A stretch of DNA of 28,018 bases from a virus: IMG/VR virus record IMGVR_UViG_3300033182_001093, positions 1 through 28,018 of that record, one strand, 5' to 3'. The position numbers were made by a program, and so were the translations under genes. Below, piece by piece: positions 9,467 through 28,018 of the stretch (position 1 is the stretch's first letter; each line of letters starts with the position of its first letter). The notes beneath the pieces are model-generated. The model was not told the DNA's origin and searched no databases. It saw only the letters and a program-made list of their open reading frames with translations.

Positions 9467-9901
9467 TTACAGATGATGTATGTCTTCGGGGTCTAAGATA
9501 GTCGCAAGAATCTCATCGTCGTTGAGAATCCTAACCTCTCCCCCGTCTATTTGAAATCTAGACCCCGCATAACGAGCAAACATCACCCATTGACGTTCCT
9601 CGCACCACGGACCCGTTGGAAACTTTTCTTTGTCTTTATAAGCTAAAGGGCCAGCCTTTAAAACATATCCCACTTGAGTAGAAATCTGCTTATTGTCCTG
9701 CACCAACGTAGGTAAAATAATACCGCTGTCGGTCTTCACTTTACCAGTGTAAGGTAAGATAAGGAGTCTCCATCCTGTGGGGGCAGGCATCCGCTCTAAC
9801 AAAGAGGCTCCAATGGCCTCTGGATTCAACTTAGGTTTGTCTACATAAACATCCGCTAAGGATTGTTGATTTTCTGTTTCTTTCTCAGTTGATTCAGTCA
9901 T
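9467..9901 (-). CDS. GroES-like co-chaperonin (Cpn10)
   Basis: The protein has 144 residues. A 30-residue acidic extension precedes a Cpn10 domain: PTGWRLLILPYTGKVKTDSG, the mobile-loop region GIILPTLVQDN, then VGYVLKAGP, WVMFARYAGS, IDGGEVRILNDDEILATI. These correspond to the strands and roof contacts of GroES. Family knowledge says it would cap the host GroEL cage, as T4 gp31 does for its capsid protein. Placement immediately before scaffold supports a role in capsid folding. The linker GPLAYKDKEKFPTGPWCEERQ is longer than in bacterial GroES. The start overlaps the preceding gene by eight bases. Confidence 0.88.
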   Translation of the reverse strand: MTESTEKETENQQSLADVYVDKPKLNPEAIGASLLERMPAPTGWRLLILPYTGKVKTDSGIILPTLVQDNKQISTQVGYVLKAGPLAYKDKEKFPTGPWCEERQWVMFARYAGSRFQIDGGEVRILNDDEILATILDPEDIHHL

Positions 9902-13529: not shown

Positions 13530-14990
13530 TTAATAATACACCCTAACCTTAACAGACTTTTCGTCATCTTCCCAGTCATCTGTAGGTAACTGGACAAAAT
13601 TTCCTTGACGATACCGCATTAAAGCCTGAGTCATACTATCAACCAAATCATCATACTCACCGTTAGGAAACGCAGCTACCTCTTCCACCATTTCATCTGC
13701 CCACACTTCGTCAGGAACCCAAACCATCCCTGCTTCAAACAAAGGCGACACACTATGTACCCTCGATAACTTGTCATTTCCCCTACTTGGAGTGAAATTA
13801 ACCACAGGAATACCCATGTTCCGTAGTTCGTGGGTCAAGGGCATTCCACTAGCCTTCGCTTCTATTATAACAGTATCAGGCTCCCAGAACTTGTAATTAT
13901 CAAAAGCAATTTGCTTTAATTCAGGAAAATCCCATCTACCTTTCTTACTATCCAACAAAATTAAGTTTGGACCCGAACCGCCCTCATTTGGATAAAACAC
14001 TCCCCAAGTCGTTATCGCAGAAAAATCAGAAGTCTCTCTCTTACTAAAAGCAGTGTCGTAACTCTGTATAACATACTCTAACTGAGGAACCTTCTCCTTC
14101 TCCCACCTACGCCACCATTCACGAGGAATAATCGCATTGTCATCGCCAGTAGGGTTTTGTTGGTACTGAGCGTTCCATTTGCTAGGAGGTATTGATGCAC
14201 GGACGGCATTCAAATCTTCAATACTCCAAAATTCAGGCCAACAAGGAGTCTCATCTTCAAAAATTGCAGGTAATTCCACTACTTCCCATTGATCGGCTAA
14301 CGGGTCTTTAGCCATTGCTCGGAGTAACTGACCTGTCATATCCTTCTCTGACCAACGTGTTTGGACCAAAACTATTGATCCACCGGGCTGGAGTCGCTGT
14401 CGTGGACCCCCTGTGTACCAATCCCAAGCATCATCAAAACCTTTAGTACTCATAGCAGTCTGCTCTGAATGCGGATCATCAATAATAACTAAATCTCCAC
14501 CACGGCCAGCAAGGTTACTTCCGACACCGACTGCGTAATACATGCCTCCTGCGTCCGTGTCCCATCTACCAGAGGCTTTACTATCTGCCGCTAACTTAAC
14601 TTTAGGGAAAATAGTCTTGTACTCGTCCCCGTCAATAAGGTTTTTGGTCTTTCTACCGAAGTTCACGGCTAACTCGGTGGTATGAGTCGCTTGTATGATC
14701 TTCATCTTCGGGTTGCGGCCCATCATCCATGCTGGAAACAAGAACGATGCGAACTCCGATTTGGTGTGTCGAGGGGCCATATTGATGATTAATCGCTTCA
14801 ATTCACCCTTGGCTACCCGTTCAAGCTTCTCGGCGATGATATGATGATGCCTTCCTGCAATGAAATCGGGCCAAACGGTTTTGACAAAAGTTAAAAAATT
14901 ATTTTGACAGGCTTCGTTTTTCTCGATCTGCGCTAAACGGAGTTTCAGTTTTAATAAACGATCTTCTGAAGATAATAAATTACTGCTCAT
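13530..14990 (-). CDS. terL: Terminase large subunit
   Basis: The protein has 486 residues with ATPase and nuclease domains. The ATPase carries a deviant Walker A (APRHTKS, residues 72-78), Walker B LVIIDD (167-172) and coupling motif VQTRW (209-213). The RNase H-like nuclease has acidic residues at YDTAF (D312), IIEAKASG (E377) and YDDLVDS (D447/D448/D451). It translocates and cuts DNA into the procapsid through the portal. It is the first gene of the leftward late operon. A TATAAT box at 15012-15017 and a 24-bp element shared with the early promoter lie just upstream. Its small partner is encoded 4.6 kb away on the other strand. Confidence 0.95.
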   Translation of the reverse strand: MSSNLLSSEDRLLKLKLRLAQIEKNEACQNNFLTFVKTVWPDFIAGRHHHIIAEKLERVAKGELKRLIINMAPRHTKSEFASFLFPAWMMGRNPKMKIIQATHTTELAVNFGRKTKNLIDGDEYKTIFPKVKLAADSKASGRWDTDAGGMYYAVGVGSNLAGRGGDLVIIDDPHSEQTAMSTKGFDDAWDWYTGGPRQRLQPGGSIVLVQTRWSEKDMTGQLLRAMAKDPLADQWEVVELPAIFEDETPCWPEFWSIEDLNAVRASIPPSKWNAQYQQNPTGDDNAIIPREWWRRWEKEKVPQLEYVIQSYDTAFSKRETSDFSAITTWGVFYPNEGGSGPNLILLDSKKGRWDFPELKQIAFDNYKFWEPDTVIIEAKASGMPLTHELRNMGIPVVNFTPSRGNDKLSRVHSVSPLFEAGMVWVPDEVWADEMVEEVAAFPNGEYDDLVDSMTQALMRYRQGNFVQLPTDDWEDDEKSVKVRVYY

Positions 14991-15011
14991 AATAAGGTTC
15001 CTTGGGACCCT

Positions 15012-15048
15012 ATTATAGTCTATAAAGATATATAAATATATGCGATGG
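15012..15048 (-). promoter_or_regulatory. Leftward late promoter: 24-bp element plus TATAAT
   Basis: On the minus strand a 24-bp element (15025-15048, starting CCATCGCATATATTTATATA) is followed after seven bases by TATAAT (15012-15017). A short leader of about 15 bases then leads to the terL ATG. No TTGACA-type -35 box is present, and the element occupies that position. The same element occurs inverted at 15606-15629. Confidence 0.7.
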
Positions 15049-15193
15049 ACCTAAATGAAAAAAATTATTAATTGTTTGTGAAAAACTTAGCTAAAGCCCT
15101 TTTTTATTTTTTATATACCCGGGCGGGCGGCGCAAAGTCCGAGAAAAAAATAGCCCTTGACATTTGACCCGATATGTGAAGGGACCCTGAGCC

Positions 15194-15503
15194 GTTAGCT
15201 AGGTGAGTGACCGCTAACGTAGCTATGTGAGTAACTGCTAACGTAGCTAGGTCAGCGGGCCTTGGATAGCTAGGTGGTTAGCTTAGTGGATAGCTGGGTG
15301 ATTAGCTAGGTGGTTAGCTAGGTGGTTAGCGCACTGGGTAGCTGTGTCGTTAGCTATGTCACCGTGCTATCGACTAGCGGTCCTGTTAGCTCGGTCAGGG
15401 ATGATATGGTAGCACCTTGGATAGCTGGGTAGCTAGCTGTGTAACTGTGCTAATGGCTAGCGGACTGGGTAGCTATGTTAGCGGACTACGGACCACGGAT
15501 CAC
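15194..15503 (+). repeat. Degenerate 12-bp tandem repeat array, consensus GTTAGCTAGGTG
   Basis: About 26 units share a TAGCT core. From 15265 to 15503 nearly every unit is exactly 12 bases (one is 11). Examples are GATAGCTAGGTG, GTTAGCTTAGTG, GATAGCTGGGTG, ATTAGCTAGGTG and GTTAGCTAGGTG in a row (15265-15324). The first part (15194-15253) repeats as a 24-25 base pair of units. Stop codons occur in the repeat frames on both strands, so it is not coding. CTAG and AGCT, both self-complementary, are dense. Confidence 0.85.
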
Positions 15504-15555
15504 GGATCACGTCTTGACATTCTAGAATAATTGTGCATGGACCCCGAACAATAGC

Positions 15556-15570
15556 CCAAAAACTTTGGGA
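15556..15570 (+). other. Perfect hairpin CCCAAA-AAC-TTTGGG
   Basis: A 6-bp stem with a 3-base loop immediately precedes the third TTGACA repeat. It has no U tract, so it is more likely a protein-binding or regulatory structure than a terminator. Confidence 0.45.
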
Positions 15571-15605
15571 CTTGACAGCGGGCCGAGAATGTGCAGGTTT
15601 CACTA

Positions 15606-15642
15606 CCATCGCATATATTTATATATCTTGAAAAAATATTTT
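15606..15642 (+). promoter_or_regulatory. Rightward early promoter: 24-bp element plus TATTTT
   Basis: The inverted copy of the late-promoter element (15606-15629) is followed by seven bases and TATTTT (15637-15642). This is the same geometry as the leftward promoter, whose box is TATAAT. The shared layout supports one factor driving both divergent operons, but no start site is proven. Confidence 0.6.
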
Positions 15643-15720
15643 CACAGGCTGTATCCCTTTGTTGGTGCGGTTCTCGGAGTTTTTAGGTTTTTTGATTAGT
15701 GAATATTGTGAAACTTTTTG

Positions 15721-15750
15721 TTGAACAATTGTTCCGCATAATGCTACTAT
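15721..15750 (+). promoter_or_regulatory. Candidate promoter with operator-like palindrome
   Basis: TTGAAC (15721-15726) and TACTAT (15745-15750) are separated by 18 bases, a plausible sigma70-type promoter. The perfect palindrome GAACAATTGTTC (15723-15734) overlaps the -35 box, a usual place for a repressor site. It would drive the early leader and first early gene. Confidence 0.5.
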
Positions 15751-15861
15751 CTGGATGTCGGTTTAACTTTAACGAGTGTAAATCGCAAAGGAAGCTTATT
15801 AGGATGCGGCCAAAAAAGAACAAAACAGTGTTAAAAGAAGTATGACGCTGACTGAGTCGAT

Positions 15862-16040
15862 GAGATAGCAATCTCCATCTGAGTCTGGCTGAAGAGCCAA
15901 ACGACTTTCGAGAAGTCGGGACAGAACGGCGACTGGGTAAGAAATTAGAAACTTGAAAAGAGAATAAAGAAATTTTTCCGCTAGCGGCAACTGGTGGAGT
16001 TGCCGCATATGAACATACCCGGCTTAACAAGTCGGGCTTG
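15862..16040 (+). ncRNA. Hairpin-rich leader, possible structured RNA
   Basis: Five stems occur within about 180 bases: GAGAT-AGCA-ATCTC, GGCT-GAAG-AGCC, CGACTT-TCGAG-AAGTCG, GGCAACT-GGTGG-AGTTGCC, and CCCGGCTT-AAC-AAGTCGGG (one G-T pair). No open frame of useful length with a ribosome site runs through it. It lies in the 5' leader of the first early gene. It could be a regulatory or stability structure, an RNase III site or a separate small RNA; no known riboswitch class was recognised. Confidence 0.4.
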
Positions 16041-16068
16041 TTGATGTGACGAAAAGGGAGAATTAAAA

Positions 16069-16356: not shown

Positions 16357-17160
16357 ATGGAATTAGAAAGAATGTTAGAAGAGATCAAAAAGATTGACAG
16401 TAATAATATCCTTACGTTTGGGAATCCCAAACTTGATAAGGGAATAGCGATGGGATACCATACAGCCGGTATCCACCTAAGCCCGAGCGATAAATCGGGT
16501 ATTATGAATGTTTGCCCTCGGGCAACTGATGGATGCCGGGCTGCTTGCCTAGACACGGCAGGTAGGGGGGGGATTGGAGCTACTAACAGCTTCGAGACTA
16601 CAAACAACGTCCAAAAATGCAGAATTCGTCGGACATGGCTATTTAAATTAGATCCTATAAGATTCAGAAAGCTAGCAAAAAAAGCATTGAAAAGGCATCT
16701 ATTAAGATGTATAAAACTACAAGTTAAGGCCGCTATTAGACCTAATTTGACATCTGATTTGCTCAAGCTAGTTAAAATGCTTGATGAAATAATTACGGAA
16801 CTTTTACAAGAATTAAAAGCTGAAGGTTTAACGGTAGAAGTTCAATTATATGATTATTCAAAGAATGGTATCAGCTCAAGCCGTGTTAAAGATATCTTAG
16901 GACTCCAAAACAGATATAAAATCACACATAGCTTTTCAGAGAAAATGAGCATCGAAAAGGTTCGAAAGCTTACAGGACAAGGAGACAATGTAGCAGTTGT
17001 CTTTAGAGCTAAAGAATTACCCAAAAGTTGGGAAGGTATCGAAGTTATAAACGGAGATGATCACGACCTTAGATTTTTGGACAAAGCCGGGGTAATTGTC
17101 GGGCTTATCGCTAAAGGTAAGGCTAAAAAAGACCGATCCGGTTTTACGGTGGCAGCATGA
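16357..17160 (+). CDS. GP88-family protein
   Basis: The protein has 267 residues. The N-terminal block LSPSDKSGIMNVCPRATDGC followed by RAACLDTAGRG (cysteines 53, 60, 64) and the C-terminal WEGIEVINGDDHDLRFLD followed by GVIVGLIAKGKAKKDRSGF are the signature of the phage gene product 88 family. That family is widespread in mycobacteriophages and marine phages but has no established function. The cysteine cluster could bind metal. The start is set by an ACTACAGGAG element nine bases upstream, and the stop overlaps the next start by four bases (ATGA). It belongs to the early operon. Confidence 0.8.
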   Translation: MELERMLEEIKKIDSNNILTFGNPKLDKGIAMGYHTAGIHLSPSDKSGIMNVCPRATDGCRAACLDTAGRGGIGATNSFETTNNVQKCRIRRTWLFKLDPIRFRKLAKKALKRHLLRCIKLQVKAAIRPNLTSDLLKLVKMLDEIITELLQELKAEGLTVEVQLYDYSKNGISSSRVKDILGLQNRYKITHSFSEKMSIEKVRKLTGQGDNVAVVFRAKELPKSWEGIEVINGDDHDLRFLDKAGVIVGLIAKGKAKKDRSGFTVAA

Positions 17161-20975: not shown

Positions 20976-21224
20976 ATGTCTATTAAACCAGAGGCCGTAG
21001 GCTGCCTTAAAAGAGGGTACTTCGTATTCTCGAAGCCTAATAAACCAAAGCAGTACTATCACTTTGATAGTATAGCTAATGCGATACTGGCTAATCATCC
21101 CGAGTGCATTGGTCAGCATATCTTTGCCCAACTCGATGCACTAGGCTTAACGGAAATTTTCTCGGAGTCGGAGACTCCTATCACATTGCCTTTTACTTTT
21201 GTCCGGGAGGGAAACAATGATTAA
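20976..21224 (+). CDS. Small early protein, unknown function
   Basis: The protein has 82 residues (KPEAVGCLKRGYFVFSKPNK, YYHFDSIANAILANHPECIG, ETPITLPFTFVREGNND). It follows a variant ribosome element with AAGGAGG (20957-20968). The stop overlaps the start of the first MORN-like gene by eight bases, so it may help couple its translation. No family was recognised. Confidence 0.6.
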   Translation: MSIKPEAVGCLKRGYFVFSKPNKPKQYYHFDSIANAILANHPECIGQHIFAQLDALGLTEIFSESETPITLPFTFVREGNND

Positions 21225-21768
21225 TGGATACTTTGATTTTTTTCAAGAAGGTATTGTCTGGAATTATGATACAAAGAAGTCTTCTAAAGAGGTTCCGCAG
21301 AACGGAAGTTTTGAAATTAAGTATCCTTTCTGTCGCCTTCTCGGATTCTTGCAAGATGGCAAGAAGAATGGGTATTGGAGTATCCGTTGGAATAAGGGAG
21401 GTTTCCAAGAGGAGACTGGAACTGAGGGTGAGTACAAAGATGGAAAGAAGCACGGTAAGTGGAGATATAGAGAATATTCTCTTTATCATTATTTGCAGTA
21501 CCGTGTAATCGCACCGCTCATGTCAGAAGGTGAATATATAGATGGAAAAAAGGACGGGAAATGGGTCTACTATCGGCGTGATCTTTACTCGCAAGGTGAT
21601 TCTTTTGACACTGAGATCTTCAGACCTTTCAAGTACGACACCAATCAATTCGGTGACGAGTCGGATGTCTTCCGATTCATCAAAATTTATGATAATGGTG
21701 AATTAAAGAAATCATTTTACGAGTGCAAGAAAGGCAAAATTTTGAAAGCAGGGGAGGCAGTAGCATGA
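21217..21768 (+). CDS. MORN-repeat-like protein, first of tandem pair
   Basis: The protein has 183 residues. Three MORN-variant motifs are visible: GFLQDGKKNGYWSIRW, GEYKDGKKHGKWRYREY and GEYIDGKKDGKWVYYRR. Each has the G-x-Y/F-x-D-G-K-x-x-G-x-W pattern of MORN/YwqK-type repeats, which form open beta sheets. The ATG at 21217 has GGGAGGG five bases upstream; an ATG at 21199 lies inside the previous gene. Function is unknown. It is similar in layout to the next gene (21795-22412), so the pair probably arose by duplication. Confidence 0.72.
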   Translation: MINGYFDFFQEGIVWNYDTKKSSKEVPQNGSFEIKYPFCRLLGFLQDGKKNGYWSIRWNKGGFQEETGTEGEYKDGKKHGKWRYREYSLYHYLQYRVIAPLMSEGEYIDGKKDGKWVYYRRDLYSQGDSFDTEIFRPFKYDTNQFGDESDVFRFIKIYDNGELKKSFYECKKGKILKAGEAVA

Positions 21769-21794
21769 TCTTGCCCATAACTACAGGAGAAAAA

Positions 21795-22412
21795 ATGAAA
21801 AATATAAGTATTGATTTCGGCGGAATGATAATTCAAATACCTCTCAAGGATGGGAAGCCACATGGTGAGTTTTATGTTGATGGGCCAGTGGGTTTTATCA
21901 AAGGGGAATTCAAAGACGGTAAGAGACACGGAAAATGGTCCTCTGATTATGACTTCCGAGGCTACTCAGATGACGGAGACAACGGAGAATTCAAAGACGG
22001 TAAGAAACATGGTAAATGGGAGCATTATGAATATGATGCTGAGAACTTCGGAGAAGATAGCAGACTTAGCTATCTTTTGAGCGAAGGTAATTACGATCAA
22101 GGCAAGAAGGTAGGCACTTGGGTTTACTACCGATACACCCGAGAAGGTGTAGAGCATGAGATATTTGAAGGTCTTGATGAGGGGATTGTGAAATGTAAGG
22201 AGTACTATGACTCAGGTAATCTTCTTCGTAGGTCATTCTTCAATGACGAACATGCTTTTCATGGTCCGTTGACTGTGTACGACGAAAATGGGAAGCCTCA
22301 AACTACTGAGTATATAGATGGTATCCGTCACAAGAATAGCTTCGAGGCTTTTGAGCAAGACTTGAAAGCGTTGATCGAAAAACATTTTACAGGAGAAGGA
22401 GAGAGCGCATGA
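21795..22412 (+). CDS. MORN-repeat-like protein, second of tandem pair
   Basis: The protein has 205 residues. Three or four MORN-variant motifs are visible: GEFKDGKRHGKWSSDYDF, GEFKDGKKHGKWEHYEYD, GNYDQGKKVGTWVYYRY and, more weakly, GPLTVYDENGKPQTTEYIDG. The ATG at 21795 is set by the ACTACAGGAG element at 21780-21789; the frame runs further upstream to the end of the first copy. Repeats share strong DNA similarity with the first gene. MORN-type proteins are seldom described in phages; their role here is unknown. Confidence 0.74.
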   Translation: MKNISIDFGGMIIQIPLKDGKPHGEFYVDGPVGFIKGEFKDGKRHGKWSSDYDFRGYSDDGDNGEFKDGKKHGKWEHYEYDAENFGEDSRLSYLLSEGNYDQGKKVGTWVYYRYTREGVEHEIFEGLDEGIVKCKEYYDSGNLLRRSFFNDEHAFHGPLTVYDENGKPQTTEYIDGIRHKNSFEAFEQDLKALIEKHFTGEGESA

Positions 22413-27291: not shown

Positions 27292-28018
27292 TTACTTCGC
27301 TTCACCCCAACTTTCCCCTATCTCAACATCACATTTATTTGGCACAACCAAAGGTATGGCACTCTCCATTATCGTAGCAACTTCATTAGCTTCTTTAGCA
27401 TCTTTTACTGAGATAGCAATCTCGTCATGGATTTGAATCAAAGGGACTCTTCCAGTTTGGAATATATTTACCATCGCTTGCTTGGTCATATCCGCTGCTG
27501 ACGCTTGAATCAAGCGATTTAAGGCTTTATAAGTGTACGCTCTTTTCAATTTGGTAGTTGGACCCCAAGCTTCCACAGCTTCACGATAAGGGAGAGCTTT
27601 GTTCATGGCAAAAGTATCTGGTTCCCAAAGATCAAAACGACATTTTCTGCCCTTCAACGAGCGCAGCGATCCGTTGGCTCCTCTAGCATTTAAGCGATTC
27701 GTCACACCTTGCATCAAACCTTTAACGAATGGTACTCGCTTGTGATACTGGTTGATTATTTTCTTTGCTTCTTCAAATGGAAGATCAAGCTGCTCTGCTA
27801 ATTTACCAACACCCATTCCGTACATAATCCCAAGATTTACTGTCTTTGCCTGTTTTCTAGGTATCCTTGCCATTTCCGCAACGAGCGTGTGAAAATCTGT
27901 GGAAGGGTCTTCGTTGTAAGCTTTTACAAATTCTTCCGCACCCTCTAGTTGTATACCTCTGGAGTCGCCAAAAACTTTTGCGTAATGAGTTAAGATTCTT
28001 GGCTCCTGCTGAGAGAAA
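27292..28018 (-). CDS. A-family DNA polymerase, C-terminal part (5' end outside window)
   Basis: The frame runs to the right edge without a start, so the N-terminus is missing. The visible 242 residues contain the motif A remnant SQQEPRILTHYA, the O-helix motif B RKQAKTVNLGIMYG (R-x3-K-x7-YG) and motif C QIHDE. An insert with RKCRFDLWEP and YTYKALNRLIQASAADMTK is typical of marine podovirus polymerases. The residue equivalent to E. coli Pol I Phe762 is Leu (KTVNLG). It copies the phage genome. A downstream ribbon-helix-helix gene follows in the same direction. Any exonuclease domain lies outside the window. Confidence 0.9.
   Translation of the reverse strand, partial: FSQQEPRILTHYAKVFGDSRGIQLEGAEEFVKAYNEDPSTDFHTLVAEMARIPRKQAKTVNLGIMYGMGVGKLAEQLDLPFEEAKKIINQYHKRVPFVKGLMQGVTNRLNARGANGSLRSLKGRKCRFDLWEPDTFAMNKALPYREAVEAWGPTTKLKRAYTYKALNRLIQASAADMTKQAMVNIFQTGRVPLIQIHDEIAISVKDAKEANEVATIMESAIPLVVPNKCDVEIGESWGEAK

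Follow-up and report, generated by a model that had tools for sequence, protein, structure and literature searches.

The DNA analysed here (the window, all 28,018 nucleotides of the viral record IMGVR_UViG_3300033182_001093) ends inside a gene for a family A DNA polymerase in which leucine takes the place of Phe762 of E. coli DNA polymerase I, and the question raised by the locus is whether this residue marks a phage lifestyle or belongs to an altered active site. The sequence-only reading of this DNA stated that published work links residue 762 to nucleotide selectivity and fidelity, which is right as far as the available text of PMC6302109, PMC9069017 and PMC13228545 goes; these papers connect the residue with selectivity, with speed and with a supposed effect on fidelity. 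Polymerases of the Leu762 type and their abundance among virioplankton have likewise been described already in the accessible parts of two of these papers (PMC6302109, PMC9069017).

The polymerase gene and its residue 762

The terminal frame of the window (27292-28017, minus strand, 726 bases) is open up to the window edge, and the 241 C-terminal residues of the protein that it encodes match the DNA_pol_A profile (PF00476; E = 1.4e-32, 113.5 bits against a curated cut-off of 34.3) as well as PHROG 17 (E = 1.1e-48). The fragment begins at Phe706 of motif A, which leaves Asp705, the thumb and the 3'-5' exonuclease domain outside the window; in the alignment, the catalytic Asp705 is present in the polymerases of the relatives. 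The features of the fragment are as follows.

27292..28017, minus strand: 3' part of the family A DNA polymerase gene, 241 codons and the stop (PF00476, PHROG 17)
27997..28017, minus strand: remnant of motif A, FSQQEPR (E. coli 706-712), from the alignment with E. coli Pol I
28006..28008, minus strand: Gln at E. coli position 709, from the alignment
28000..28002, minus strand: Pro at E. coli position 711 (Leu616 of Taq), from the alignment; the residue found coupled with Leu762
27817..27858, minus strand: motif B, RKQAKTVNLGIMYG (R754, K758, L762, Y766), from the alignment
27832..27834, minus strand: CTT codon of Leu762, from the alignment with coordinates
27478..27519, minus strand: NRLIQASAADMTKQ with N845 and Q849, from the alignment
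27421..27435, minus strand: motif C, QIHDE (H881, D882, E883), from the alignment

The residues R754, K758, Y766, E710, N845, Q849, H881 and D882 are kept in the window polymerase when it is aligned with E. coli Pol I. In the same alignment the leucine of the window occupies the Phe762 position, while a HMMER alignment with Taq chains sets it beneath the Phe of 'AKTINFG' (Phe667); the assignment of leucine to Pol I position 762 from the bare sequence is borne out by both. Alignment with characterised polymerases had been proposed as the check on that assignment, and no other residue came to stand at 762.

Searching IMG/VR with this polymerase fragment gave at least 595 rows encoding relatives, of which the best 80 were kept (71-77% identity); six relatives compared with the fragment are 72-76% identical to it. 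Leu762 is present in 80 of these 80 best matches among at least 595 (73 recognised by pattern and 7 read by hand, the latter with Ala directly after Leu762), and six of the six leucine codons are in use at the position. Such constancy across all six codons excludes a sequencing accident and indicates that the amino acid itself is being kept. It also speaks against Leu762 being a neutral or drifting substitution devoid of functional meaning in this lineage, a view that is hardly credible, as the corresponding change in phage T7 (Y526L) leaves an enzyme that is nearly dead according to the available text of PMC13228545. Leu762 is correct, yet ordinary for this lineage.

Phage kinship and the link to lifestyle

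The best annotated polymerase matches over the fragment are those of DSL-LC04 (52.9% identity), 023Pt_psg01 (52.3%) and the pelagiphages HTVC023P (48.3%) and HTVC027P (41.2%), all of which carry Leu762 and Pro711 like the window. The capsid protein of the window is 70-72% identical to the capsids of these four phages, and the portal, terminase, GroES and adaptor genes are homologous and similarly ordered in the window, the HTVC023P-type phages and DSL-LC04. By its terminase, polymerase, GroES and capsid genes and by their order, the window belongs with the HTVC023P-type phages; its polymerase falls into the same broad group as that of HTVC023P but forms a distinct lineage, the nearest relatives being uncultivated IMG/VR contigs (71-77%).

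9467-9901, minus strand: co-chaperonin GroES gene (Cpn10), common to DSL-LC04 and the pelagiphages

A gene set of UvrD and SNF2 helicases and a primase has been reported for the Leu762 Group II polymerases of virioplankton (Nasko et al., 2018, PMC6302109, available text). The polymerase of one relative (L010) has a 3'-5' exonuclease domain and is neighboured by a UvrD helicase, an SNF2 helicase and an AEP-type primase; UvrD-like and SNF2-like helicases are also annotated in DSL-LC04, and the window ends before this region. Leu762 is common to Group II, as described in the accessible part of PMC6302109, and the window, while the helicase neighbours are common to Group II and L010. The window enzyme would be of the known Leu762 virioplankton type and, judged by these gene neighbours, most like Group II. 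The large subunit of ribonucleotide reductase (RNR; PF02867) has no match in the window fragment, in 25 IMG/VR records or in four annotated genomes. The Leu762 phages YuA and FP1 (L090, L092) do carry this subunit, which differs from the published statement of Leu762 groups without RNR.

Apart from the polymerase, the divergent terminase and early genes are separated by a gap of about 1.1 kb (14991-16068) in which tandem repeats of the TAGCTAGG/GGTTAGC type occur, with repeat arrays at 15196-15356; the GC skew changes sign in this gap, a pattern like that of an iteron-type origin. Short tandem repeats of another kind occupy the corresponding gap of DSL-LC04 (14573-14774), and none were found in the equivalent gap of two relatives (L004, L010). 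The gap further contains three exact TTGACA boxes (15157-15162, 15514-15519 and 15572-15577), each followed some 10-11 bases on by a similar ATGTG/ATTGTG, as if a promoter were repeated. On the plus strand, two adjacent open reading frames at 21199-22412 encode repeated G-E-Y/F-K-D-G-K-K-H-G-K-W units, which are MORN-like and unusual in a phage (the second frame gives a weak, sub-cut-off MORN_2 match), and positions 16357-17160, also on the plus strand, encode a member of the Gene product 88 family (PF17338; PHROG 1617, of unknown function).

The sequence-only reading had also repeated the association of Leu762 with slower or temperate lifestyles. On this proposal Leu762 marks a temperate or slowly replicating phage, a slower and more accurate enzyme being suited to lysogeny, and the association does stand in the available text of PMC6302109 and PMC13228545, with Schmidt 2014 as the cited source. 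As that reading had noted, the window shows no integrase: neither the tyrosine integrase profile (PF00589) nor the serine recombinase profile (PF00239) has a match within it. By itself, however, the window is unable to test the link because its record, linear and 28 kb long, is a fragment, and the genomes of its kin measure around 60 kb (57.6-61.5 kb). The integrase search covered 43 records: the window, the four annotated genomes and those 38 of the 80 IMG/VR relatives that are at least 10 kb long. None of the 43 records of this lineage, four complete genomes included, has a tyrosine integrase, and none of the 25 of them searched for it has a serine recombinase; a ParA-type partition gene (PF13614) is likewise absent from 33 records, among them the window, YuA, FP1 and T7. 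In 14 control genomes the same searches gave matches in 14 (PF00589), 10 (PF00239) and 14 (PF13614). In the records searched, the association with a slower or temperate lifestyle thus finds no support for this lineage.

Beyond the lineage, neither PF00589 nor PF00239 has a match above the cut-off in 22 further long records from the wider marine/YuA-like group; 21 of these were read as Leu762, the remaining one (L217) being identical to another row, and the record of L116 holds an 18.3-bit, sub-cut-off fragment from the recombinase search that contains a stop. Annotations of a 'putative integrase' on YuA gp26 and on a VP5 gene would favour the temperate reading, yet neither phage matches either recombinase family. 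The temperate reading is also favoured by actinophage-type records, in which a serine recombinase accompanies Leu762 in 4 of 6 cases with Val-Glu-Pro and in 3 of 3 without Pro711 (recombinase-bearing Leu762 records: L314, L333, L337, L508, L509, L531 and L555). However, recombinases are also present in Phe762 records of the actinophage type (L299, L300, L305, L315, L320, L332, L335, BeesKnees, Takoda and Success), and the His762 Mycobacterium prophage prophiGD24-3 (L578) has a serine recombinase as well. Furthermore, virulent phages of Bradyrhizobium elkanii with Leu762 have been published, in a paper whose available text itself remarks on the mismatch (PMC12656738). Recombinases follow phage lineage and not residue 762, the use of Leu762 as a marker of a lysogenic lifestyle is not supported in this lineage, and the temperate explanation is improbable.

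Association of Pro711 with Leu762

In the alignment with E. coli Pol I, a motif A of the form S-x-Q-E-P was common to the Leu762 polymerases, with the exception of VP5. The association was counted in a sample built from eight viral scans and one bacterial scan (best 80 matches each, hand-chosen seeds) together with named phages, which gave 574 polymerases and, after 67 identical sequences had been dropped, 507 distinct ones. Of the 228 polymerases in this sample that have Leu762, 222 carry Pro711, as do 0 of the 279 others (198 with Phe, 79 with Tyr, 1 with His and 1 unreadable at 762), which have mostly Leu, Met or Tyr at 711; the counts keep L407, which is unreadable, and OTA22, which is entered as Phe762 on a doubtful alignment. 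When the loci from scan A1 are removed, whose pattern contained motif A residues up to Glu710 with 711 outside it, the figures become 145 of 151 and 0 of 279. The six exceptions among the 228 are VP5 with the near-identical L423 and L424 (Val711), L314 and L531 (Leu711) and L555 (Met711), so that Pro711 is not strictly required.

Departures at the steric gate itself were seen in two polymerases: the IMG/VR contig L194 combines Phe762 with His in place of Glu710 (motif A SQVHYR), and prophiGD24-3 (L578) combines His762 with Asp in place of this Glu (motif A ADAR).

An association of this kind could mostly reflect shared ancestry, one old clade having fixed both residues and the other cases being few or misplaced. 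Coupling and shared ancestry were weighed on a tree of 68 representatives built without the motif A and motif B columns. L407 and OTA22 were also left out of the tree, motif B being unreadable in the former and misaligned in the latter. Among the representatives, Pro711 is the trait most associated with Leu762 (phi 0.91; next 0.64). Parsimony counts 6 changes for Pro711 and 7 for Leu762, and 5-7 for Pro711 across 1000 bootstrap trees; as the counts are unrooted, they leave the direction of the switches untold. Four well-supported independent pairs differ in Leu762, and on average Pro711 changes the same way in 3.0 of them, the opposite way in 0.0 and not at all in 1.0, a number of pairs with which a sign test is unable to reach significance.

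The likelihood ratio for correlated evolution of Pro711 and Leu762 is 32.9 with 4 degrees of freedom; it amounts to 24.0 without seven long rows and to 32.2-41.5 on 20 bootstrap topologies with equal branch lengths. For comparison, 160 other column/residue traits out of 384 were run as controls. Their median was 6.8, their 95th percentile 14.7 and their maximum 17.1; in the same run Pro711 reached 35.0, and Tyr727, at 21.9, is also above the control maximum. Gln709 was considered as the partner of Leu762 and set aside, with a likelihood ratio of 22.3 against the 35.0 of Pro711; it is frequent in Phe762 actinophage polymerases and absent from the Val/Ile-Glu-Pro enzymes.

Shared ancestry draws on the one large group that holds most of the Leu762/Pro711 rows, on the long branches and unsure placement of AXL3, EC99P1 and Kronus, which also combine Leu762 with Pro711, and on the low power of the sign test. 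Nevertheless, an actinophage-type group of six polymerases with Val-Glu-Pro and Leu762 (L333, L334, L337, L341, L508 and L509) sits within a starred clade of the tree that is mostly Phe762 and without the proline, and Kronus has Ile-Glu-Pro. Moreover, a Phe762 clade whose residue 711 is Tyr, Phe, Leu or Ser is nested in the Leu762/Pro711 group (support 97/80 and 99/95), and Pro711 stands far above the 160 control traits on the same tree. If the nested clade is placed right, residues 762 and 711 would have switched together there. Descent from one ancestor as the main cause of the coupling is therefore considered rather unlikely, and, because the deep branches of the tree are poorly resolved and the long rows uncertain, Pro711 and Leu762 are read as strongly associated through a modest number of independent changes.

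Proline beside the steric gate

In the available text of a 2026 T7 preprint, the role given to the Phe or Tyr ring at 762 is to set the incoming sugar in place for Glu710, the steric gate, and the T7 Y526L enzyme is reported there to lose 97% of its activity, with a phage that is not viable and does not complete its cycle (PMC13228545). Natural Leu enzymes, according to the same text, depend on compensatory mutations; looking for such mechanisms is called a key direction there, and the change itself goes unnamed. According to a review, shrinking the Taq equivalent of residue 711 opens space behind the residue at 762 (PMC4215692). The Pro711 of the window aligns with Taq 616 (3po4 chain position 324, offset by 292 from full-length Taq), and this alignment, taken with the packing described in the review, makes 711 and 762 neighbours in the sugar pocket and Pro711 a natural candidate for the compensator.

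In an AlphaFold model of the polymerase of relative L004 (pLDDT 90.7), Gln709-Glu710-Pro711 fall into the opening turn of the helix after the motif A strand. Proline is easily borne in the first turn of a helix. E. coli Pol I, Taq Pol I and T7 gp5 share the fold and the catalytic residues with the window-type polymerase; they differ from its Leu762/Pro711 in having Phe762 (Phe667 in Taq) or Tyr526 (T7) together with Leu at 711. Another Leu762 enzyme, DpoZ of vibriophage phiVC8, builds 2-aminoadenine DNA. Its structure (PDB 7pbk) is the nearest solved one both to the predicted fold of the relative and by profile, and DpoZ is near-identical to the VP5 polymerase. Unlike the window enzyme, it is without Pro711 (motif A ASFEVR) and has Phe in place of Tyr766, and 7pbk thus provides a useful contrast, a natural Leu762 without Pro711.

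It is probable that the gene encodes the replicative family A polymerase of a lytic-type, HTVC023P-related phage and that its Leu762 is one half of a Pro711-Leu762 active-site pair. In this pair, leucine would take the place of the aromatic ring by which the incoming sugar is usually held against Glu710, and proline that of the residue behind the ring; Pro711 may then reshape the turn beside Glu710 such that Leu762 is tolerated and activity is restored. Such an enzyme would be expected to discriminate against dideoxynucleotides as Phe762 enzymes do, or more strongly. More tentatively, and with less than even confidence, Pro711 and Leu762 might constitute a second, repeatedly evolved sugar pocket, in which the proline after Glu710 stands in for the lost ring at 762 and acts as the compensator that enables whole-genome replication, which would explain the lethality of the leucine in T7. 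Family B polymerases have a proline directly after their steric-gate tyrosine and are not known to have an aromatic residue at the equivalent of 762; the Pro711-Leu762 pair would then be a convergent solution.

No statement on a pairing of 711 with 762 was found in the main texts of the key Leu762 papers or by literature search, and motif A, proline and position 711 go unmentioned in those main texts, including the available part of PMC6302109. The Pro711-Leu762 coupling is accordingly the part that is new here, the Leu762 type itself being already known. Viromics infers phage lifestyle from residue 762, and the present lineage is a counter-case: it is a large marine lineage (at least 595 rows) with Leu762 in all 80 relatives read and integrases absent from the records searched, so that such a lifestyle guess can mislead. 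The coupled position, which adjoins the steric gate and is reported to pack behind residue 762, turns the question of compensation into an experiment on two residues of one enzyme.
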